DNA of 54,159 nucleotides from a virus. Shown in pieces: positions 2,028 to 30,396 of the stretch (positions are counted from its first letter, which is position 1; every line of letters starts with the position of its first letter). A program made the translations under genes and the position numbers. The notes under the pieces were generated by a model, which did not search any database, had not been told where the DNA came from, and was given only the letters and a program-made list of their open reading frames with translations. The stretch spans positions 1 to 54,159 of IMG/VR virus record IMGVR_UViG_3300046689_000478. The stretch is one strand, 5' to 3'.

Positions 2028-2261
2028 ATGAAATATTTGATCGCGTTTCTCCTCCTGGCATCGCCCGCGCTCGCGGACAAGGCCCTGATCCTTTCGGACC
2101 AGGACCAGGCCGCGCTAATGGCGATCTTCGATGCCGCGATCAAGGCTCAGGGTCTCAACCAGATCAGCATCAATGCTTTCGTCCTGAGCGAAAAGCTCAG
2201 GAACGCGGGAACCATAGCCGACCAGAAGCCGCCCGAGCCCACGAAGGAGGGCGCCAAATGA
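2028..2261 (+). CDS. Small exported alpha-helical protein
   Basis: The ATG lies two bases after the previous stop. The 77-aa product carries the signal peptide MKYLIAFLLLASPALA, then a helical region (LSDQDQAALMAIFDAAIKAQG) and a charged Pro/Glu/Lys tail. Its stop overlaps the next start. It looks like a short periplasmic helical protein; no family recognised. Confidence 0.5.
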   Translation: MKYLIAFLLLASPALADKALILSDQDQAALMAIFDAAIKAQGLNQISINAFVLSEKLRNAGTIADQKPPEPTKEGAK

Positions 2262-3880
2262 CGCGCTTACTTGCTGCGTTGCTGTCTCTGCTGCTGACCG
2301 CGTACCCGGCGGCCGCGGCGGTTGTCACCATCACGGTGGTGGATGGGGGTGGGGTGTCGAGGACCTTCAACGTCACGACCCCCACTTCCATTACCGGCGC
2401 CCTGAGCTGGAACAACGTCATCTGCGACCAGGCGGCTGGAGCGATCTGCGCCACCGTCACCGCTGGGAACGCGCTCAAGGTGGATGGTTCCGCCGTCACC
2501 CAGCCGGTCAGCCAGGGGACAGCATCAAACCTCAATGCCCAGGTGGTCGGCAACGTTGCCGCTGGCGGGGCACTGGCCGGCAACCCCGTCCGCATCGGCC
2601 TCACCGACAATACCCTCGTGCAGAACTGGTTCACCGCCATCACGCTCGGCGACGGCGTTAACGGCAACAACACCGCTGCGGTGGCGGGCTGGGTATGGAA
2701 CGGCACCACCTGGGATCGGATGCCGGGGTCGACGGCTGGGGTCAAGGCGGTTGTCACCCAGCCGACCGGGACGAACCTGCATGCTGTGATTGATACAGGC
2801 TCGACAACTGCCGTCACACAGGCCACTGGGACGAATCTGCACGCCGTAATCGACACAGGATCGACCACTGCGGTCACGCAAGTCACATCATCAAATCTAA
2901 AGGCCCAGGTCGACCCCCTGACGGCGGCGTCGTGGGGCATTGCGACCAGCACGCAGAACAGCACGGTGGCGACCAATGGACAGCTCGCCCTCGCACAGTT
3001 CAACACTTCGCCCACGACCATCACCACCGGGAACATGAGCCCGCTGCAGCTCGACGCAAGCGGCAACCTGAAGGTCAACATCATAACCGGTGCTGCCACG
3101 GGCTCTACGTTTGGGGCGGCGTTCCCGGCCACGGGCACGGCGATCGGCATGACCCAGGGCGGCAACATGGTTGCCCTTTCCGGCACAGCCGGCAACCTCA
3201 ATGTCCAGTGTGCCAACTGCTCTGGCTCGGGCGTGAGCACGGCTGACCAAGCCGCGTTTGTGCAGGGAACTTCATTGTTTGCTGGCGCTGGCGGCGTGTT
3301 TCTCGACACCGCTACGGTGTCCTCGGGCTTCCAGGGCATGTTCCGCATGACCACCAAGCGGGCCCAGATCATCGACACCGACATCACCGGGAACGCCCTC
3401 TACACCGCACTGACTGCCCCCGCTAAGATCGACCAGACCACCCCCGGTACCACCAATGGCGTGTTCGTCACCAACGCCACTTCGCTCGGCCGTGCTGCTG
3501 CTGCAGCCAGCAACCCCGTGGTCCCCGTTGCAGCCGCATCCACTGCAGGTGCTATCGTTCCGAACAACACGAATTCTGTTGTGGTAAAAGGCTCGGCTGG
3601 AACTCTTTTCGGCGTGCAAATCTATGGTCTTGGATCGGCACCTGCCTATCTGAAAATCTACAACGCCGCGACCGCCACCTGTGGCTCAGGCACACCAGTC
3701 AAGCGTCTGATGATTCCTGCGGCGGCCACAGCAGCGAATGGCGCCGGCAGCAATGTCACGTTCGGTCCTGGTCTAGCTTTCGGTACAGGCATCACGTACT
3801 GCGTGACAACTGGCCTGCCAGACAACGACACAGGAACACCCGCAGCAACCACGTTTCTCGTGAACATGGACTTCGAGTAA
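2258..3880 (+). CDS. Exported fibre-like protein with tandem repeats
   Basis: A 540-aa protein starting in an ATGA overlap. It begins with MTRLLAALLSLLLTAYPAAA, a signal peptide, followed by beta-rich, Thr/Gly/Ala/Asn-rich sequence with many VDxxG and NLxAQV turns, typical of phage fibre or baseplate appendages. Residues about 165-210 hold two copies of a 20-residue repeat (TGTNLHAVIDTGSTTAVTQ) plus a degenerate third. The C-terminal third (about 425-540) looks like a compact beta domain with a Cys pair (TCGSGTP, TYCVTTG). Likely a receptor-binding or cell-surface-contact protein; the signal peptide is unusual for a virion fibre. Confidence 0.6.
   Translation: MTRLLAALLSLLLTAYPAAAAVVTITVVDGGGVSRTFNVTTPTSITGALSWNNVICDQAAGAICATVTAGNALKVDGSAVTQPVSQGTASNLNAQVVGNVAAGGALAGNPVRIGLTDNTLVQNWFTAITLGDGVNGNNTAAVAGWVWNGTTWDRMPGSTAGVKAVVTQPTGTNLHAVIDTGSTTAVTQATGTNLHAVIDTGSTTAVTQVTSSNLKAQVDPLTAASWGIATSTQNSTVATNGQLALAQFNTSPTTITTGNMSPLQLDASGNLKVNIITGAATGSTFGAAFPATGTAIGMTQGGNMVALSGTAGNLNVQCANCSGSGVSTADQAAFVQGTSLFAGAGGVFLDTATVSSGFQGMFRMTTKRAQIIDTDITGNALYTALTAPAKIDQTTPGTTNGVFVTNATSLGRAAAAASNPVVPVAAASTAGAIVPNNTNSVVVKGSAGTLFGVQIYGLGSAPAYLKIYNAATATCGSGTPVKRLMIPAAATAANGAGSNVTFGPGLAFGTGITYCVTTGLPDNDTGTPAATTFLVNMDFE
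2753..2899 (+). repeat. Tandem repeat, two 60-bp units plus partial third
   Basis: Units start at GTCACCCAG (2753), GTCACACAG (2813) and GTCACGCAA (2873), exactly 60 bases apart. The first two encode nearly identical 20-residue blocks, and the third decays after about nine codons. Most differences between units are synonymous, so the repeat is kept at protein level. Confidence 0.8.
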
Positions 3881-4086
3881 TGAGAAAGATTGCGATCATA
3901 GTCGGCCTGGCTCTATCGGTGATCGCCGCGCAGGCGCAGCTGACGATGACGAACGTGGGAGGGGGAGGGTTCGGGGGCGCAGCGGCTCCGTCTGTCTCTA
4001 ATAGCGCCTGCCTTCTCGTCCCGGGCGTCATCCTGCCGTGCCAGGACCAGCTCGTTAATACCCCTACTCTCATCGGAGGTTTCTGA
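3880..4086 (+). CDS. Small exported Gly-rich protein
   Basis: The ATG shares its A with the preceding TAA (TAATG). The 68-aa product has the signal peptide MRKIAIIVGLALSVIAAQAQ, a glycine run (NVGGGGFGGAAAP), and a short C-terminal part with two cysteines (ACLLVPG, LPCQDQL). It resembles the other small exported products of this cassette. Unknown function. Confidence 0.5.
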   Translation: MRKIAIIVGLALSVIAAQAQLTMTNVGGGGFGGAAAPSVSNSACLLVPGVILPCQDQLVNTPTLIGGF

Positions 4087-4087
4087 C

Positions 4088-4717
4088 ATGCTAACTTGGC
4101 TCAAGGACGACGGCTGGTTCAAGCTGAGCTTGATCGGCGTCGCATTGCTGGCGGTTACCGCTGCCAGGTCCAACTATACTGCCCCGCAGCCTGGAACCGC
4201 GCAGACCGTGGTAGCCTTTGACACGGGACACGGCGGAACAAGCGCCTGCGCTGCCGCTAACACGCAATGCCCAGCGACGGCTCTGATAGATTCCGCGGGG
4301 ACAGAGAAGCTGACGGGGACCAATCCTGGTTACGTCGGCGTCGCAAGTGATTCATCGACCACCTCCGCAGGAACGACGGCAGTCGCGGGGACGACGGCAA
4401 CGAGCGTCGTCGGGAAAGCCTCGGCCGGGAACCTGCAGAGCGCCTACGTGACCAGCTCCGCCGCAGGGTGGGTCTTCCTCATCAACGCCACGTCTCTTCC
4501 GGGCAACGCGACCCTCACGATCGGGACCGCTTCAGGCAATCTGCAAGGGTGCTTCGAGCTGCAGAAGGGCGTCACGGATTGGGGTGCTAGCATCACCTAC
4601 AATCCGGGCCCCTGGGAGCATTTCTCCACCGGCATAGTCGTGGCGGTCTCCTCGACCGACTGCCCGGTTCTGACGGCGGCCTCGACCGGCAAATTCATTC
4701 ACGCCCAGGTGAACTAA
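4088..4717 (+). CDS. Membrane-anchored or exported beta-rich protein
   Basis: A 209-aa protein with an N-terminal hydrophobic segment (WFKLSLIGVALLAVTAA) behind a charged start (MLTWLKDDG), which fits a signal anchor or an uncleaved signal. The rest is Thr/Ser/Gly/Ala-rich beta sequence with paired cysteines (SACAAANTQCPA, GCFELQ, DCPVLT). Located in the exported cassette one base after the previous stop. No family recognised. Confidence 0.5.
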   Translation: MLTWLKDDGWFKLSLIGVALLAVTAARSNYTAPQPGTAQTVVAFDTGHGGTSACAAANTQCPATALIDSAGTEKLTGTNPGYVGVASDSSTTSAGTTAVAGTTATSVVGKASAGNLQSAYVTSSAAGWVFLINATSLPGNATLTIGTASGNLQGCFELQKGVTDWGASITYNPGPWEHFSTGIVVAVSSTDCPVLTAASTGKFIHAQVN

Positions 4718-4718
4718 T

Positions 4719-5654
4719 ATGAAGGCGCGTCTTCTCGCTGCTCTGCTTCTACTGCTCGGCATAGTCGTGCTGGCGCAACAGCCCCAGGCGCAACTTCGTG
4801 TTCTGGGTTGCAGCGGCAGCGGCGCTGGCAAAATGATATTGTTCAAGCCATGTACCGTGGCCTCACCCTCTTACGTAGGACCTGGAGATGTTGGGATAAC
4901 GACCCCCTTGGCGTGGGCGGGCTTACGCGCCTTCAGTGCAGCCACGAGGGGGAACAACGCCATCCATGTATGCAATCCAGGCGACATTACGTGTGCGGAC
5001 ATGGTTACGGACGCGACCACAGGGGCTTTGGTTGTCACGACAGTCGGCGGTTCCGACTGCTCCATAGTCGTTTGCACGGTCCAGACAATCTATGACCAGA
5101 CAGCGGGCGGTAATTGCACCGGGTCTTGCAATCTCGTCCAGACCACGATCGCTAACAGGGCAGCTTTGACAGTCAGCTGCTCGGGGCTGACATCGCGTCC
5201 ATGCCTCACCTTAAATGGCACCAGCTCCGTCTATCAGGCGGGCAACTTTTCGGGGCAATCTCAGCCATTTGTATATAACTTTATTTTCAATCACCCATTT
5301 ACATCAGCACGACAAGACATAGCCGCCACTATTGGCCTAAATTTGGGTGGCACAGCCGGCAATGTGTTTTGCGCCCTCGGCGGCTTCGACCAAATCTCTG
5401 GGAGTGGCCTGGATGGGAATTGGGGTTCTCTATCAGTCCTTGGGAACGGTGCCTCATCTGACATCCACGTCAACAGCGCCGCTCCCAATATCGTAGACTG
5501 CGGCACTGGCGCCCTCACTACGCCATTCCAACTTGGGGGCACGAGCAACTTTTTAAGTGGGTCTGCGGTTGAATTTGGCGTTTGGAACAGCGGGCCAAGC
5601 TCAACTACCATGAACACGCTCAGTGCTAACGCGCATACATTCTGGGGCTTCTGA
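4719..5654 (+). CDS. Exported GH54/LamG-like carbohydrate-binding or hydrolase protein
   Basis: A 311-aa protein with signal peptide MKARLLAALLLLLGIVVLAQ. Residues about 60-165 follow the layout of the catalytic domain of GH54 alpha-L-arabinofuranosidase-like proteins and related phage appendages: PLAWAGLRAFSAATRGN, then TCADMVTDATTGALV, then TIYDQTAGGNCTGSCNLVQ (the YDQ..G.GN motif), then LTLNGTSSVY. The C-terminal part reads like a concanavalin-type beta sandwich. Many cysteine pairs suit oxidative folding outside the cytoplasm. I infer glycan binding or cleavage; activity cannot be judged from this. Confidence 0.5.
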   Translation: MKARLLAALLLLLGIVVLAQQPQAQLRVLGCSGSGAGKMILFKPCTVASPSYVGPGDVGITTPLAWAGLRAFSAATRGNNAIHVCNPGDITCADMVTDATTGALVVTTVGGSDCSIVVCTVQTIYDQTAGGNCTGSCNLVQTTIANRAALTVSCSGLTSRPCLTLNGTSSVYQAGNFSGQSQPFVYNFIFNHPFTSARQDIAATIGLNLGGTAGNVFCALGGFDQISGSGLDGNWGSLSVLGNGASSDIHVNSAAPNIVDCGTGALTTPFQLGGTSNFLSGSAVEFGVWNSGPSSTTMNTLSANAHTFWGF

Positions 5655-6889
5655 TGCGATTTCGCATATCTGGTATAGCCGCTATTCTGCTTGTTGGTCT
5701 CGTCAGCGCGGGCTTCCTGACCGGTCGCACACCGGTCACGACCTATACTGGTTTAGTCGGGACGCGGGCCAAAATCCCCGCGAACTATGACACCTCCAAC
5801 AACCAGATGATGGCGAAGTCGTTTCACTATGCGCGCGCGAACATAACCAGCGTACAGCCGACATTCGCCTGCTGGTACGAGAATATTTCAAGCAGCAATG
5901 CCGAGGCCGCTCCTGGCTCAAACTGCGTTGTCAAGGGGAGCGTCGAGTACCCTCCGGGGACCTGCATCCCCGCTACATTCTCGGGGATGTCTAGCGCTAC
6001 GGTTACGGCAGGGTTGAGCGTGAAGGCTGATCCCGTTGCGATCACCATCCCAAATGGAGCCAAATACTTCATAAACGAATATATGACCAACGCCTCGGGT
6101 CTGATCTACTCTGATCAGGTTGGAGATTGGACGAACGGAGACCGGATCGACGTTGGCGTAAGTGGAATAGCTGATCACACAGTGGATTGCGCTGCGGTTA
6201 CGCTCACCGTTGGGTTCATGTCATATCCAACATCAATAACCGGGTCCGTTCCGTCCAACCAGGCATCGGTGTGCCTTCTTGGCGACAGCATGACGGACGG
6301 ACAAGACGATGCCTTCACCGGAACGTCGGGCGACGAAGGATTGCTTGCGCGCTCGGTGGGGCCGTCTTTCGGCTACATCAACATGGGAGTCAACGCCGAC
6401 TCATCTGGGCGCTTCAATGCGAGCCACACTCAAAGAGCACTGCTCTTGCAGGATTGCACCACCGCAGTCAGTGCCTATGGCCACAACAACTTCTTTGCCG
6501 ATGGCGAGACGCTGGTGGTAATGGAAGCTAATCAGCAGACTATGTATGGGACAGTCGCCGCCAATCTGATCGGCAGCAAGACGATCATTCAGACAACTCT
6601 TCCTCCGACTACAACTTCCTCAGACAACTGGGCCACGCTGGGCAACCAAACCGTCTCCGGATTCAACGCCTCCCTTGCTGGCTACAACAGCGCCCTTCGT
6701 GCTGCGACCACGGGTCCAACCGGGGGCTATTTTGACGTGAACAGTGTTGTCGGCACCAGCACCAATACCATGTTCTGGATCACGAACGGCACTGCCTTCT
6801 TTATGACCGTAGATGGCGTCCATCCATCGCCTGCTGGATATGCTCTGATCCAATCCAGCGGCATCATCGACACGACGAGGATGCACTAA
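5654..6889 (+). CDS. Exported SGNH/GDSL esterase-like protein
   Basis: The start shares a base with the previous TGA (TGATG). The 411-aa protein has an N-terminal hydrophobic signal (GIAAILLVGLVSAGFLTG). Residues about 207-395 carry the SGNH blocks: LLGDSMTDG (nucleophile Ser near 212), NMGVNADSS, YGHNNFF in place of GxND, and VDGVHPSPAGY with the Asp-x-x-His pair near 386-389. SGNH enzymes include polysaccharide and peptidoglycan deacetylases or esterases; capsule or LPS deacetylation is a reasonable guess. The N-terminal 200 residues look like a separate beta domain. Confidence 0.7.
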   Translation: MRFRISGIAAILLVGLVSAGFLTGRTPVTTYTGLVGTRAKIPANYDTSNNQMMAKSFHYARANITSVQPTFACWYENISSSNAEAAPGSNCVVKGSVEYPPGTCIPATFSGMSSATVTAGLSVKADPVAITIPNGAKYFINEYMTNASGLIYSDQVGDWTNGDRIDVGVSGIADHTVDCAAVTLTVGFMSYPTSITGSVPSNQASVCLLGDSMTDGQDDAFTGTSGDEGLLARSVGPSFGYINMGVNADSSGRFNASHTQRALLLQDCTTAVSAYGHNNFFADGETLVVMEANQQTMYGTVAANLIGSKTIIQTTLPPTTTSSDNWATLGNQTVSGFNASLAGYNSALRAATTGPTGGYFDVNSVVGTSTNTMFWITNGTAFFMTVDGVHPSPAGYALIQSSGIIDTTRMH

Positions 6890-9800
6890 TGAAATGGCGC
6901 GTTATCCTGGCATCGGTTTTCGCGATCCTTGCGGCTTTCGCCCCACCAGCGACAGCGCAATTCGCGATCTTTGAGGTCAAGAGCAGTGGAGGAGGAGGGC
7001 CTAATACTGTCGCGCTGTCCAACACCTCGATTGTTGAGATGTCGGCCAATGGTACGTTCCTGGGTTCGGCCTCGATCGTGGGATCGTTTACCGGAACCCC
7101 GGCATGGTCGTTGACCGACGCCCTCGGGGTGTTCCAGATAAATTCGTCGACCGGCGTGGTGACCGTTCTCAACAACACCAACCTCGTCAATGCGACACAC
7201 CCAACCATCCCGATCACTATCTCGGCGGCTGGCACCACACCTTCGACCACGCCGGGAAACTTCAACGTCAGTGTAACTGTTGCCGGCGGTCCAGGGCTGG
7301 TCGTCGGCACTTACGGCTCTACGGCCTCGAACGGATGGACGACCATTGGACCCAGTAACGGTACGCTGGCCTGCGCGTGCTTCACCAACATCATATACGT
7401 GTCCGACAGTCTGGGTGACGATAATCGGGACGGCTCGGTGCCGACATTCGTCGACGACAACAACACTGTTCAGTTCGTTCTCAGCTCAGCGATCACACCT
7501 GCGGTAAACGATGTCTATCAAGCCACTGGCGGAACCCAGTTTACAGTCTCAACAGTTTCTGGTGTTGGATCTTATACGTTCTTGCAAACGATGAACCGAA
7601 CCGGAACCCCTCCCTCGACCGGGACGCTAACTCGTATCTCTGGGTCAGGCCCCATCGGGCCACTTACCTATACGGCAAGGACCCTAGGCATTCACGGCCC
7701 AGTCAAGACGTTGATCAAGGGAGCTGGTGGATCGGGGCCAGGGCCTTATGATCCTAATGCCAGCGGCAGCAACAACGGCGACGGAACCGGTCTTGGCAGC
7801 ATTGGTAACTGGCATACGGCGGGGGCCGGAAATGGCTTTGCTCTGCGCAATGGGAAACCAGATTGGCTTCTGCTTCGCATGGGAGATACGTTCACGAACC
7901 AGGCTATCGAAGCGGCGTACAACGGAGGAACGGACAATTTTATAAAAGGCGGATTCTCGGAACAAGAGCCGTTGGTAGTCTCATCCTACGATGAAGCTGT
8001 CCCGGCGACATCGCCCGACCTTCCCTCCGGGGCGCGGGCTCGGCCGATCGTGCTTGTTCCTGGGGCGACTGATGCCTATGCGATCATGCAGGGTGACCTA
8101 CACGGATTTCAAGGACGCGCCGGCATAAGTTTGGCGGGCACCGGCAATCTTGGTTACACTGCCATTATGGGCATAGACTTTTATTCCTCACAACGCGACC
8201 CTACTGCTGGGGCATATGTAGGTTCAACCAATGTATCAAGTGCAACTAGCGGGATATTTTTTACATCGGGAATGATTGGAATTTTGATAGAGGATGTTCG
8301 AGTTAGATGGGCCAAAAGTGGCATCGCCAATAGCGGGGCTCCTCCGTATATGTCTGATGTCAATATCAGACGAAATCAAGTAGACCATTGTTATACTATG
8401 CCAGGGCAAGGATTCTCTCTTGGAATTGTTATGGACAACATAAGCGCCATTGGAGGTCCCATATCCCCTGGTTTCACTATGGACGAAAACGTCATCGATT
8501 TGTGCGGTTTTGTCGGCGCCGCACTGACAGCGGGCGACGATCACAGCCGCAATGTCTATATTCAAGGGACCTCCGTATTTGGCAGTCGTCGAGGAAACAC
8601 GAGCACGCGGAGTGCGTCGGAGGATTTTCAATTTCGATCAGGCGGGGTCATCGACAATAATTTTATGTACGCTGGGAGTTCAAGTGTGGAGGTTGGGCAC
8701 CCCGAGGGCAATCCCACTTTGGGCAGCAACACGGTTGTCACCAACAATGTGCTATTAACTACTGATTCCCCATTCGGTGTTGGGCGAGGAAGTGGGTTTA
8801 ATTTTGATAACTCCAACAATGTGACTGCTTCCAACAACGTCATTGCCCATTACGATCCAACGGTTGGGTCTTTCGGTTGGTTTGCTACGACAGATGCTTA
8901 CAACGGCACTACGCAAGACTTAACGATAACCAACGCCGGCAGCGGCGGAACGGCAGGAGTTTACGGGTGCATAGGTGGCACAGGAAACTTTACTACTGGT
9001 GGGCTTGGAACAACAGTTAGCACCTACACCATGACTATTGGGGGAGGATCAATAACCGCTTTAGATTTCATTGAACCCAGGTCCGGCACGTACGAGGTTG
9101 GAGATGTGTTGACGCCTGTTTCCGGCTACCCCAGCATCAATACGGCAGGGACCACGCTCAGCAATGTTGGCACTGGGGGAACGCCAGGAAGTTATGGGTT
9201 CACTGTTGCAGCACCGTTCTGTGCGTATCATCCAGTTACTCAGGGATTTGGTGCTGGCTCTGGGGTTGCGTTGAGTAATTTCAGCGGCAGCATGGCTGGG
9301 TCCGGCGCAATTGCTACGTTTGCCTATTCGCCTTTTAGCAGCATCACGAGAACATTAAATGGGGTCACTGGTTTTTACGAAGCTACCGGTACGCTCAGCA
9401 CCGGACTTCTAGTCATTGATACAGACAAATTCACGGTCACTGGCAATACTCCATCTGCCTATAATGGTGAATGGACTATCAAATCAGGTGGCACGCCAGA
9501 CGGTAGCACCCCTACCACCTCAATAGTATGGTCGTTGAACACCGCAATGGACCCTGGACCTGTGACCGTGCCTGGGACTCTTACGGATTACGTCATCACT
9601 GGCACAGGCAAGAATTACGTAGCCGGGGATGTTCTGACGGCTTCACCGGGTGGTCTAACCGGATTGAGAATCACAGTCGGTTCAGTGGCGGATCTGAGCG
9701 GATGGCAATTAACCGTCGCTACTGTGACCAGCGCAGGCGTTCACAACCTGTCATTCACCGGGAACACTATTTTTAACTGGCCGCCTGACACGATCCCCCC

Positions 9801-10290
9801 CAGTCCATTGGTCGATCAGGGCGGCATCAACGACTCCCCTGGTGGGATTCCTGGCAGCGGTGCAGCTAATATCTGGACTGGCAACACGAGTTGTCCAACA
9901 GCGCAGTTCCCTGGGTCTATTGTCGGGACCGTTCTATCGTCTGGCACGGTGGTTCAGGGAACTATTGCGATTGGGCAAAACCTTGCTGGTCCTGGTGTGA
10001 CGGCCAATACCACGATCACAGGAGGCTCCGGTTCAAGTTGGGCCGTATTTCCGTCACAAACCGTTCCCGTACCAGTGACAATGTATTCGTACACTTGCAC
10101 GCCGACGACTGTGTTCCCGCACCCGGAAAACACCGTCGAGACTTATGCCGCCTCGCTTGGGTTGACAGCTACATTTGATGGCTACATGAATGCCGCATCA
10201 GCCAATGCGAAGTGGAACTGGAACCCTGTATACACGGCGAACAACGGCATCAATCCCTACATTAGACACGGCTTTGGGATGACGCCATGA
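6889..10290 (+). CDS. Exported right-handed beta-helix protein (depolymerase-like)
   Basis: A 1133-aa protein starting in a TAATG overlap, with signal peptide MKWRVILASVFAILAAFAPP ending near ATAQ. Residues about 40-135 resemble a cadherin-like beta domain (FQINSSTGVVTVLNNTNLVN). Residues about 390-690 are parallel beta-helix-like, with short Asn-rich rungs (SGIFFTSGMIGILIEDVRV, NIRRNQVDH, DNNFMYAG, TNNVLLTT, SNNVTASNNVIAHYDP). Beta-helix proteins of this kind are commonly polysaccharide lyases or tailspike depolymerases. The middle of the gene (about 8160-8900) is visibly richer in A+T than its flanks, suggesting acquisition by exchange. Catalytic residues cannot be assigned. Confidence 0.6.
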   Translation: MKWRVILASVFAILAAFAPPATAQFAIFEVKSSGGGGPNTVALSNTSIVEMSANGTFLGSASIVGSFTGTPAWSLTDALGVFQINSSTGVVTVLNNTNLVNATHPTIPITISAAGTTPSTTPGNFNVSVTVAGGPGLVVGTYGSTASNGWTTIGPSNGTLACACFTNIIYVSDSLGDDNRDGSVPTFVDDNNTVQFVLSSAITPAVNDVYQATGGTQFTVSTVSGVGSYTFLQTMNRTGTPPSTGTLTRISGSGPIGPLTYTARTLGIHGPVKTLIKGAGGSGPGPYDPNASGSNNGDGTGLGSIGNWHTAGAGNGFALRNGKPDWLLLRMGDTFTNQAIEAAYNGGTDNFIKGGFSEQEPLVVSSYDEAVPATSPDLPSGARARPIVLVPGATDAYAIMQGDLHGFQGRAGISLAGTGNLGYTAIMGIDFYSSQRDPTAGAYVGSTNVSSATSGIFFTSGMIGILIEDVRVRWAKSGIANSGAPPYMSDVNIRRNQVDHCYTMPGQGFSLGIVMDNISAIGGPISPGFTMDENVIDLCGFVGAALTAGDDHSRNVYIQGTSVFGSRRGNTSTRSASEDFQFRSGGVIDNNFMYAGSSSVEVGHPEGNPTLGSNTVVTNNVLLTTDSPFGVGRGSGFNFDNSNNVTASNNVIAHYDPTVGSFGWFATTDAYNGTTQDLTITNAGSGGTAGVYGCIGGTGNFTTGGLGTTVSTYTMTIGGGSITALDFIEPRSGTYEVGDVLTPVSGYPSINTAGTTLSNVGTGGTPGSYGFTVAAPFCAYHPVTQGFGAGSGVALSNFSGSMAGSGAIATFAYSPFSSITRTLNGVTGFYEATGTLSTGLLVIDTDKFTVTGNTPSAYNGEWTIKSGGTPDGSTPTTSIVWSLNTAMDPGPVTVPGTLTDYVITGTGKNYVAGDVLTASPGGLTGLRITVGSVADLSGWQLTVATVTSAGVHNLSFTGNTIFNWPPDTIPPSPLVDQGGINDSPGGIPGSGAANIWTGNTSCPTAQFPGSIVGTVLSSGTVVQGTIAIGQNLAGPGVTANTTITGGSGSSWAVFPSQTVPVPVTMYSYTCTPTTVFPHPENTVETYAASLGLTATFDGYMNAASANAKWNWNPVYTANNGINPYIRHGFGMTP

Positions 10291-10835
10291 CCCATCGAAA
10301 TCTTGTAATAGCTTGTTTTCTGTTGCTGTCCATTGAACAGGCAAATTCCGCGACCTGGAACATCGACGGTGTGTTCGCTACCCAGACTTTCGATTCGGTA
10401 GACTGCCCCAGTGGTCCTTACGATTCTAGCTGCTTTTACCATAGCGTGTTCAACATTAATAACCCACTAACTGGTAGCTTCGATATATCCAACGGCGTGG
10501 TCACTAACTTCGATCTAAATTTCGGTGGCCTGCATTTTACCAAGGGCTCTGCTAGTGGAATTGAGAACGGAGAATTTTTCTACTATTCGATCTCACCCAC
10601 TTACACAGTATTGCAATTCGCGTTTGCGGATGGCGTTCTCTCAGATGGGCTACTTCATCTTTGGACAGATTATGATCCCTGGTTCAACTGGGACTACAAG
10701 TTCACCAACCTGACCGGCACAGCAGTCGATCCCCCAACAGTAACCCCGCTACCCCCGGCGCTCCCGCTATTTGCCTTTGGGCTTGGCGTGCTATTGTGGC
10801 GAGGCACGAGGGCTAAGGACGAGGATGCGCGATGA
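10287..10835 (+). CDS. Exported protein with VPLPA-CTERM-like sorting signal
   Basis: A 182-aa protein starting in an ATGA overlap. It has an N-terminal signal (LVIACFLLLSIEQANS), a beta-rich middle with few charged residues (ATWNIDGVFATQTFDS, GSFDISNGVVTNFDLNFGG), and a C-terminal tripartite tail from about residue 152: TPLPPALPLFAFGLGVLLW, then RGTRAKDEDAR. The motif PLPxALPLF, one transmembrane helix and a short basic tail match the VPLPA/PEP-CTERM signals that exosortases process in exopolysaccharide-producing Gram-negatives. The last two residues of the tail are not purely basic. The protein body resembles PEP-CTERM proteins of the host chromosome, so it was probably captured from a host. 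Confidence 0.7.
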   Translation: MTHRNLVIACFLLLSIEQANSATWNIDGVFATQTFDSVDCPSGPYDSSCFYHSVFNINNPLTGSFDISNGVVTNFDLNFGGLHFTKGSASGIENGEFFYYSISPTYTVLQFAFADGVLSDGLLHLWTDYDPWFNWDYKFTNLTGTAVDPPTVTPLPPALPLFAFGLGVLLWRGTRAKDEDAR

Positions 10836-10858
10836 GCTTCAGCGGCACCTACCTATTC
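10832..10858 (+). repeat. Duplicated gene-start segment, copy 1
   Basis: Nineteen of 27 bases match the start of the adaptor gene at 11518-11544; both encode MS(F/Y)SGTY. Five of the eight differences are in third codon positions. The two copies flank the homing endonuclease gene. Confidence 0.7.
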
Positions 10859-11521
10859 GCGGGGATCGTTCCTGACGGCGATTGTCTCGTCTATGCCGCC
10901 ATCAACCGGGTGACCGGTGACTTCTACCTCGGGGCCACTGAAAAAGGGCTTGCCGCTCGTCGACAGAAGCACCTAGCTAACGCCGCTCGCGGACAGGCCG
11001 GCAAGTTCTATACGGCAATCCGCAAGTATGGTGCCGATAACTTCGACTTCATCCCGCTGAGCGAGTGCCGAGACTTCTGGGACGCGCTTGACTTCGAGCG
11101 GGTCTGCATCGCCCTCATGCTGCCTCGATACAATCTCACTGCAGGAGGTGGGGGCATCAAAGGTTATCGACATACCGAGGAAGCGCGTGCGCTGATGTCG
11201 GCGACGAGGAAAGGTCGACCGGGCCCGTGGTCAAACGGCATGTCCGAAAAAATGAAAAACAGGCTGCGGGCCGCCAATGCTGCCACCATCGGGAAACCGC
11301 GAACGGAGAGGGAGGTGCAGGCGAGGCAAAAGAATGCTCGACTTGCCAACGAAGGCCGGCGCAAGCCCGTTATTTGCGTCACGGATGGGGAAATGTACGG
11401 GAGCGTCACAGAGGCTGCGGCGGCGTACGGGCTCACCAATGGTCGTGTAAGCTACCATTGCGGCGGTGATCATAAATCTCGGCGCGGGCTTCAGTTCCGT
11501 TATGCGGAGCGGCCGGAATGA
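10832..11521 (+). CDS. GIY-YIG homing endonuclease with NUMOD motifs
   Basis: The 229-aa protein has the GIY-YIG core at residues about 18-100 (LVYAAINRVTGDFYLGATEK, Arg in AARRQKH, Glu in DFERVCIALMLPRYN). A NUMOD3-type DNA-binding motif follows at about 110-130 (GYRHTEEARALMSATRKGRP), and an IENR1/NUMOD1-type module at about 175-226 (VTEAAAAYGLTNGRVSYHCG). These belong to free-standing phage homing endonucleases that nick DNA and spread into related phages. Its first eight codons (MSFSGTYL) mimic the start of the next gene (MSYSGTYN), so it appears to have inserted at that gene's start. Confidence 0.85.
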   Translation: MSFSGTYLFAGIVPDGDCLVYAAINRVTGDFYLGATEKGLAARRQKHLANAARGQAGKFYTAIRKYGADNFDFIPLSECRDFWDALDFERVCIALMLPRYNLTAGGGGIKGYRHTEEARALMSATRKGRPGPWSNGMSEKMKNRLRAANAATIGKPRTEREVQARQKNARLANEGRRKPVICVTDGEMYGSVTEAAAAYGLTNGRVSYHCGGDHKSRRGLQFRYAERPE

Positions 11522-12210
11522 GCTACAGTGGGACGTACAATTTTTCACCTTCGGTGGCGGAGTTGGTCCTGAATGCCTATGGCAGGATTGGACTTCGAGG
11601 TCCCGCCTTAGTCGCCCAACATTGGGTGGACGCAAGAACCGAGGGGAATCTGCTTCAACTTGAATGGCAAAATCGCGGCGTTCAATTATTCACAGTCGAC
11701 CTGCAGACCGTCCCCCTCGTCGCCGGTGTTGCCACCTACAGCGTCCCCGACAACACCATGATGATCCTCGACACCTACATTGAGGTCAATTCCGGGGGGC
11801 AGCCGATCGACCGCATCATCCTCGGCGTCAGCCGATCCGACTATGCGGCGTATCCCAACAAGACCATCCAGGCTCCTCCGACAACGTGGTGGTTTGACCG
11901 TCTCATCTCCCCCACCATCACGCTCTGGCCGGTCCCGGACAGCAGTCAGCCCTATGTACTGAAGTACTACCGCTATCGCCTGATTCAGGACGCCGTCCTC
12001 GCTGGGGGCATCCAGCCCGAGATGCCCGTCCGCTGGCTGGACGCATGGGCCGCGGGTCTTGCGCACCGCCTGGCCAGGCTCCATGCTCCGCCGCTCGAGC
12101 AGCTGCGCAAGGCCGACGCTGAAGAGGCTTGGCAGAACGCGGCGACACAGGATTTTGAAAACACGCCCATCCGCATCCAGCCAATGATCTCGACTTATTG
12201 GAGAAGGTAG
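11518..12210 (+). CDS. Head-tail adaptor (tail tubular A-like) protein
   Basis: A 229-aa protein starting in an ATGA overlap. It has the pattern of the adaptor family found under the portal of short-tailed phages: VAELVLNAYGRIGLRG near the start, LEWQNRGVQLFTVDLQTVPL, TYSVPDNTMMILDTYIEV, SRSDYAAYPNK, PTTWWFDRLISPTITLWPVP and VLKYYRYRLIQDAV, followed by a helical C-terminus. It would join portal to tail nozzle. A second adaptor-like protein is encoded at 15808. The family call is from pattern memory. Confidence 0.7.
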   Translation: MSYSGTYNFSPSVAELVLNAYGRIGLRGPALVAQHWVDARTEGNLLQLEWQNRGVQLFTVDLQTVPLVAGVATYSVPDNTMMILDTYIEVNSGGQPIDRIILGVSRSDYAAYPNKTIQAPPTTWWFDRLISPTITLWPVPDSSQPYVLKYYRYRLIQDAVLAGGIQPEMPVRWLDAWAAGLAHRLARLHAPPLEQLRKADAEEAWQNAATQDFENTPIRIQPMISTYWRR

Positions 12211-29208: not shown

Positions 29209-30396
29209 ATGACATTGGATCAGCTCGTCCCGTGGTTAGCGGTGATCGTAATTTTCGTCGGCATGGTGGCGTTGGACCTCTATGTATTCAGCTGGCTGGG
29301 AAAGATCGCCATTCTGGTCCTGGGCGGGAAGCCTCCGGCACCGACCGTACTCCCCACCACGCTGGCCGACGAACTCGCCAAGCTCAAGCAGGCCATAGCC
29401 GCCGCTGCCAAGCCACCAGCTCCAGTCGCACCACCGCCCGTCCCGCTGCCGACCCCCGCCCATCCCGGCGAGCCGCCCTGGTACACGCTCGCGCTCAAAG
29501 ATGTCGGCTTCCACGAGGTCGGGGACAACCGGGGGATCGAAAAGTTTGCCATAGGCGCCAAGATTCCGGTCGAGCAGGCGCTGGGGCAGCCATGGTGCGC
29601 CACTGCACTAAATTGCTGGTTGGAGACGGCCGGTGTTCCCGGGACTAAAAGCATGTCCTCGCAGTCGTTCACGAATAGCCCATTGTTCGTGAAGCTCGAC
29701 AGCCCGGCGATCGGATGCATCGTGGTATTCTGGCGCGGCAATCGCGAGAGCGGCCTCGGACATGTCGGCCTCTATGTCTCCGAAACCGGAACCAGCATCA
29801 ACACGCTGGGTGGCAACGAATCGGATGGCGTGCGGATCGAGGCGCTGCCGAAGTCCTCTGCGAGCTTCGGGTTGGTCGGCTACTACTGGCCGAAGGGGTA
29901 TCCGTTGCCGACCGGCGGCAGCGTTCCCGCTCCGTCAACCTCACTGACCTATGTTGCTAATCCGCCGCCTCCGCCTTCGGGGCTGGTCAACAGCGCCATC
30001 GTCATCGGCAAGATGAGCGTCTTCGGCGGCCCCAACGATACCGGCGTATCACCGAGTGAAGGCTTGGCTTTGTGCGAACAGGCGGAGGTGGACAAATTCC
30101 CCGGCCTGTTCTTACCCACGCAGCCACCGGGAACCACCGGCGTGGCCCGCCGTCTTGACCCGACCAAGGCCTACATCGCCATGCGTTGGGACTACAAGCA
30201 GACCTCGCGCTCGTATCTCCAGGGCATCACGGTGAAGGTGGCGGCCAATGGCAAGACGCTGGACGCCCGCCCCATCGATTGGGGACCGGCCGCATCGACT
30301 GGCCGCATCTGCGACATGAGTCCCGGCCTCGCCACCGCGCTCGGGCTCAAGACCGACGACACCTGCACCGTGACCATCCCCCTCGCGGTAACCTAG
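29209..30396 (+). CDS. Membrane-anchored peptidase endolysin with DPBB domain
   Basis: A 395-aa protein; ATG follows GGAG. An N-terminal membrane segment (~10-40: LVPWLAVIVIFVGMVALDLY) acts as a signal anchor, then a Pro-rich linker. Residues ~85-225 match the TIGR02594/NlpC-like peptidase family: EPPWYTLALKDVGFHEV, active Cys in GQPWCATALN (~129), His in SGLGHVGLYVSE (~185). A second linker precedes ~275-393, a double-psi beta-barrel-like domain (GPNDTGVSPSEGLAL, PIDWGPAASTGRICDMSPG). It would cleave peptidoglycan peptides at lysis; SAR-type export by the anchor is possible. Confidence 0.75.
   Translation: MTLDQLVPWLAVIVIFVGMVALDLYVFSWLGKIAILVLGGKPPAPTVLPTTLADELAKLKQAIAAAAKPPAPVAPPPVPLPTPAHPGEPPWYTLALKDVGFHEVGDNRGIEKFAIGAKIPVEQALGQPWCATALNCWLETAGVPGTKSMSSQSFTNSPLFVKLDSPAIGCIVVFWRGNRESGLGHVGLYVSETGTSINTLGGNESDGVRIEALPKSSASFGLVGYYWPKGYPLPTGGSVPAPSTSLTYVANPPPPPSGLVNSAIVIGKMSVFGGPNDTGVSPSEGLALCEQAEVDKFPGLFLPTQPPGTTGVARRLDPTKAYIAMRWDYKQTSRSYLQGITVKVAANGKTLDARPIDWGPAASTGRICDMSPGLATALGLKTDDTCTVTIPLAVT

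Follow-up and report, generated by a model that had tools for sequence, protein, structure and literature searches.

Few functions are known for the substrates of exosortases, enzymes found in environmental bacteria that produce exopolysaccharide. Where phages display proteins on the surface of their host, the use best known is superinfection exclusion. Exosortase substrates of Gram-negative bacteria carry VPLPA-CTERM or PEP-CTERM tails (TIGR03370, TIGR02595, and NF035944; Haft et al. 2006, PMC1569441). The phage protein considered here, P0001, resembles them in its signal peptide, variable body, proline motif, single hydrophobic segment, and short arginine-containing end, and its PLPxALPLFA motif is near-identical to that of bacterial substrates; it differs in being phage-encoded without an exosortase of its own, in reading TPLPP and not VPLPA, in failing the curated cut-offs, and in its weakly basic end. 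The MYXO-CTERM tag of the myxosortase system (PMC11980579) is likewise tripartite and C-terminal, and its HMM gives a weak match to P0001, below the cut-off; its invariant cysteine, however, is missing from the P0001 tag. Among viruses, TIGR03118 proteins with a putative exosortase-interaction tail receive a passing mention among the acquired cellular genes of Yellowstone hot-spring viruses (PMC11003980). Like P0001, these are virus-encoded and have an exosortase-type tail, but their body family is different, they are given as acquired cellular genes, and the passage that mentions them makes no sorting argument. The Ltp-type lipoproteins of Streptococcus thermophilus phages, a case of phage-encoded superinfection exclusion at the surface (PMC3952083), offer a works-like analogy, in which a maturation pathway of the host brings a small phage protein to the cell surface; unlike P0001, they use a lipobox anchor in Gram-positive hosts, and the likeness is one of analogy only. 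An earlier note on this DNA knew of no established phage example of an exosortase target. No study of phage-encoded exosortase substrates was found in the open-licence PMC literature, which agrees with that statement; in IMG/VR, however, examples borne by phages are common, and the passing mention above is a published one.

The window, that is, the whole 54,159-base stretch analysed, is a virus record and, by gene content, a genuine tailed-phage genome, with genes for RecT, exonuclease VIII, a primase/helicase, a DNA-ejection protein, and an SU10-type adaptor, and, at the right-hand end, the terminase large subunit. Since hallmark phage genes occur all along the window, contamination with host DNA was rejected. 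Seven consecutive genes (2028-10835), of which P0001 is the last, all encode products with signal-peptide-like N-termini by a crude hydropathy check; such N-termini are absent from the next ten genes checked after 10835. This run, together with the GIY-YIG/NUMOD3 match of the following gene, bears out the earlier placement of P0001 at the end of an exported cassette, just before a homing endonuclease (Table 1). The GC content is 0.543 across 4719-10835 versus 0.614 downstream.

Table 1. Features of the P0001 locus and their positions in the window
Feature	Position	Strand	Basis
Upstream exported-protein cassette (2028-2261, 2258-3880, 4088-4717, 4719-5654, 5654-6889, 6889-10290)	2028-10290	+	Signal-peptide-like N-termini
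Exported GDSL/SGNH esterase	5654-6889	+	PF13472, 40.7 bits over 32.9; phrog_8480
Exported 1133-aa protein, 61-65% identity in three related phage types found	6889-10290	+	Sequence comparison
Tagged-protein gene P0001, ATG to TGA, 182 aa	10287-10835	+	Complete ORF
Predicted Sec signal peptide, residues 1-21, predicted cleavage ANS^A (sister ANA^A)	10287-10349	+	Direct reading, crude hydropathy/AxA check
Beta-rich body, fast-diverging, 51% nucleotide identity to sister	10350-10697	+	Sister comparison; AlphaFold, mean pLDDT 41.6
Conserved block KFTNLTGTAVDPPTVTPLPPALPLFA, residues 138-163, dN 0.018, dS 0.88	10698-10775	+	Codon comparison with sister
Putative VPLPA-like sorting motif TPLPPALPLFA	10743-10775	+	Sequence reading; bacterial counterparts
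Predicted hydrophobic transmembrane segment LPLFAFGLGVLLW	10761-10799	+	Sequence; helix 158-181 in low-confidence model
Short charged C-terminus RGTRAKDEDAR (sister RRTQWLVGN)	10800-10832	+	Sequence reading
GIY-YIG/NUMOD3 homing endonuclease, accessory neighbour	10832-11521	+	Above Pfam cut-offs

The open reading frame, with the tail and charged end described in the earlier note, was confirmed exactly. It overlaps the preceding stop through ATGA, as the endonuclease start in turn overlaps that of P0001. The sequence reads as an N-terminal Sec signal peptide (MTHRNLVIACFLLLSIEQANS^A), a beta-rich body, and a tail (TVTPLPPALPLFAFGLGVLLW-R..R), and the protein terminates in TVTPLPPALPLFAFGLGVLLWRGTRAKDEDAR. 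TPLPPALPLFA begins 30 amino acids before the end and is followed by a hydrophobic helix, which is a VPLPA-CTERM-like arrangement; the post-helix end is of mixed charge and weakly basic, with acidic residues present. Searches of P0001 against Pfam, NCBIfam, and PHROGs returned no match. The AlphaFold model was unusable for a fold search because of its low mean pLDDT and gave no structural clue to function, and the PDB sequence matches (all E > 0.4) were dismissed as noise.

The strongest evidence that the tail matters comes from a sister gene that three IMG/VR contigs carry and that was found by a search with whole P0001, not through the motif. Across the 26 codons for residues 138-163, including TPLPPALPLFA, 15 are identical, 10 differ only synonymously, and 1 changes the amino acid in the one sequence pair compared; dN is 0.018 and dS 0.88 in this block, against 0.63 and about 2.2 in the body, where synonymous sites are saturated. 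Ten synonymous changes to one amino-acid change argue that the proline motif has been conserved as protein and is not recently shared DNA, and in this pair purifying selection acts on the tail separately from the body. At the other end of the gene, residues 1-30 are 92% identical between the sisters at the DNA level, pointing to a putative recombination at the left edge.

The curated models, on the other hand, did not recognise the tail. The search of the C-terminus against TIGR03370 and the PEP-CTERM models, proposed in the earlier note, gave no curated match: neither whole P0001 nor its isolated tail matched TIGR03370 (VPLPA-CTERM; cut-off 25.35 bits), for which a synthetic canonical VPLPA tail, the positive control in the NCBIfam search, scored 38.5 bits, and the curated PEP-CTERM models did not recognise P0001. 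The sole NCBIfam match of the isolated tail was MYXO-CTERM, at a sub-threshold 13.3-14.4 bits against a cut-off of 15.85 bits; with this score and no cysteine in its tail, P0001 is not a MYXO-CTERM member. An independent tail HMM was trained on 146 phage-contig tails picked by three motifs other than that of P0001. It gave the P0001 tail 10.4 bits and the best plain C-terminus among 2,847 background C-termini 9.2 bits; the 17 background C-termini that outscore P0001 were all sorting-signal variants on inspection. The margin over plain C-termini is thin, and the sister tail, at only 4.1 bits, lies within the background and is not separated from it. The P0001 tail thus exceeds a random transmembrane helix, the comparison on which the earlier note would have let its claim fall, but narrowly, and its sister does not. 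The selective conservation of the tail is stronger evidence than its HMM score. A chance motif was considered for the P0001 tail and rejected.

This small margin, the failure of every curated sorting model to match P0001, and its atypical charged end would also suit a plain transmembrane anchor, in which case P0001 would be an inner-membrane protein acting in the periplasm (for example, in lysis or DNA-entry exclusion) and its proline motif incidental. We consider this unlikely, because the motif has been selectively conserved despite the 10 synonymous changes, the exact motif terminates many bacterial proteins, and analogous phage proteins pass the curated cut-offs.

The bacterial counterparts were found with the pattern PLP[AP]ALPLFA. 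In the species-representative genome collection 79 stretches carry it, mostly as a C-terminal tail, in Hyphomicrobiales, Rhodospirillales, Sneathiella, Methylophaga, Rhodobacter-like, and other bacteria; the exact TPLPPALPLFA had 0 matches in genome_contigs. A PF09721 exosortase is encoded in 10 of the 18 pattern-bearing bacterial genomes checked, which were picked by motif and may not be those of the phage's host, and in five of the six with the exact PLPPALPLFA form. In a sample taken around one Hyphomicrobiales MAG, PF09721 was present in only 51/385 alphaproteobacterial genomes and 13/199 genomes of the order Hyphomicrobiales, and the search for relatives of the P0001 body in the 385 genomes gave only tail-driven matches, in one genome. 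Assignment of a host through the terminase was rejected, as the best identities (51% and 47%) are too distant; the loci of these closest relatives have only the terminase in common with the window, and exosortase is absent from the closest (G189) and present in the second-closest (G343), both too distant for host assignment.

Several Hyphomicrobiales MAGs with multiple VPLPA-type tails had no PF09721 or TIGR04178 match, which is only suggestive, since they are drafts. They raise the alternative of a genuine sorting signal in the tail, read by a non-classical enzyme, in a host lineage that has VPLPA-type tails without PF09721; that the only curated near-match of the P0001 tail, although sub-threshold, is to MYXO-CTERM, a tag processed by myxosortase (PMC11980579), agrees with it. 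We judge this improbable: draft genomes make the absence of exosortase weak, the invariant cysteine of MYXO-CTERM is missing, and exosortase accompanies the PLPPALPLFA form in all but one of the six genomes above. Several VPLPA-type tails without a PF09721 match were seen on L137-L148 of three draft Hyphomicrobiales-order genomes (G416, G003, and G005), for which either an unknown sorting enzyme or incomplete genomes are possible. Two of the tagged genes in G005 may be prophage genes, since L106 has a possible prohead-protease-like gene nearby and L110 a tyrosine-recombinase-like one.

P0001 is not an isolated case. Four IMG/VR motif scans gave 26, 18, at least 120, and 59 stretches, and the matches listed include about 200 viral contigs with C-terminal sorting-type tails. 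Among the 226 ORF matches listed, in which three contigs are counted twice, the motif starts 20-48 amino acids from the C-terminus in 213, and a signal peptide is present in 171 by a crude rule; the 183 complete ORFs among the matches listed form 40 sequence groups. Some of the tail-bearing matches could be due to host DNA carried on viral contigs, but several sit among phage genes, as detailed below. Of nine tested phage proteins from other families, five score above NCBI cut-offs, namely that of TIGR03370 (VPLPA-CTERM) in L033 and L032, those of PEPxxWA-CTERM and TIGR02595 in L184 and L258, and that of TIGR02595 (PEP-CTERM) in L311. That PEP residues are invariant within families chosen by pattern was put down to selection bias; a body-only search of the L311 family took the place of this argument, and in it the tail was kept in 36/36 complete homologues (34 VPEP and 2 APEP), many of them on contigs of 41-44 kb. 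The AlphaFold model of this family, which is unrelated to P0001, is an antiparallel beta protein (pLDDT 77) with no significant structural match in PDB or BFVD. No exosortase was found in any of 29 tagged-protein phage records, implying the use of the host enzyme. Searches of INPHARED phages with whole P0001 (tblastn, noise only) and with three full-length tagged representatives of other families (no match) were empty, and thus yielded no isolate whose host is known. Four tail peptides drew no match there either, to which little weight attaches because of low-complexity filtering.

Several further observations concern the make-up of these phages. Two tagged proteins per phage occur in L033 (12449-13795) and L040 (3406-4762), in tandem in both, and also in L034 and L035. 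Tagged proteins of different body families (L032, L035, L038, L040, L044, and L046) have in common an unusual extension, RGAWDDLPRVDFLPKV or close variants, after the Arg cluster, running past the usual end of such tags. The window encodes an endolysin-like protein with an N-terminal membrane segment (29209-30396), whose domain recurs in the tagged-protein phage contigs L007, L012, L031, and L040.

The tagged gene lies 11 bp from the terminase in L007, beside DNA polymerase in L046, between exonuclease and helicase in L029, and with a RecE-like exonuclease and an integrase in L033; others are in regions with portal (L271), tail fibre (L204), or terminase (L317). That many tagged phage genes sit in structural regions, that the P0001 cassette abuts the virion adaptor gene, and that its GDSL esterase has a phage-family match would be expected of a virion or tail-fibre accessory, with the cassette supplying adhesion or depolymerase parts and the signal peptides and tail serving virion assembly or release. 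Such a role for P0001 is very improbable, however, since tailed-phage virions form in the cytoplasm, so that Sec export would take the proteins away from assembly, and the tagged genes of L046, L029, and L033 are in replication or early regions.

As to the surroundings of P0001, the cassette (2028-10835) is mostly common to another phage, in which the flanking genes are not recognisably related. A third phage (L328) has the 1133-aa protein (65% identity) without the tagged gene, which indicates that the tagged gene is dispensable and its function accessory. The place of the tagged gene in L328 (3864-5264) is occupied by an unrelated gene without a signal peptide. No homologue of the homing endonuclease was found among the genes at the corresponding point of the sister phage. 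At 10832-11600 of the window, the endonuclease starts MSFSGTYLF and the SU10-type adaptor gene that follows starts MSYSGTYNF, as if the endonuclease gene had been inserted with a duplicated adaptor-gene start.

Taken as a sequence-based reading, P0001 is a real phage protein with a probable exosortase-class sorting tail, and we think it reasonably likely that it is a phage-made surface protein borrowing the host's exosortase-type sorting pathway. The works-like interpretation as an exosortase-type substrate is well supported, whereas TIGR03370 membership is not claimed: of the earlier proposal of an exosortase-type tail on a phage protein, the general class stood, given the conservation of the tail, near-identical tails in exosortase-bearing bacteria, and many phage examples, and the specific VPLPA-CTERM family did not. 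Under this sorting pathway, P0001 would be translated within the exported-protein cassette, where the gene order and start/stop overlaps suggest coupling, and exported by Sec, as its signal peptide predicts; the C-terminal helix would hold it in the inner membrane. To judge from the motif, from how it is conserved, and from the examples in bacteria, a host exosortase would then cut at TPLPP and P0001 would be handed to the surface or exopolysaccharide matrix, the phage supplying only the substrate and the host the enzyme. The most likely purpose would be an altered surface of the infected or lysogenised cell. If P0001 is sorted in this way, its action can be envisaged along several lines: (i) with nearly an even chance, it masks or modifies a receptor or exopolysaccharide and so excludes competing phages; (ii) somewhat less likely, it remodels exopolysaccharide together with the cassette esterase and 1133-aa protein; (iii) the remaining probability falls to a host-benefit or virion role. 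The export of a GDSL esterase and a conserved 1133-aa protein by the same cassette makes action on surface polysaccharide plausible. We infer the function, whether superinfection exclusion or exopolysaccharide remodelling, from this context, and that P0001 might "hitchhike or hijack" the host's surface-display machinery, in the words of the earlier note, is likewise a reading of it.

To conclude, the tagged proteins suggest that phages commonly use the host exosortase surface-display system; with the class so widely spread among uncultured phages, P0001 would be one member of a general strategy. In its broadest form we put forward the idea tentatively: many unrelated tailed phages of soil bacteria may independently carry host-exosortase-tagged surface proteins, amounting to a general, unstudied re-coating of the infected or lysogenic cell for superinfection exclusion or matrix remodelling, and some hosts may use a still unknown sorting enzyme. 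The tail also serves as a sequence tag by which phage proteins on the surface of Gram-negative cells can be sought. If phages repeatedly keep exosortase-tagged genes, these would provide a route to the function of exosortase substrates, phage infection would be linked to biofilm and floc surfaces, and the loss of exosortase would be predicted to change phage susceptibility or superinfection immunity.
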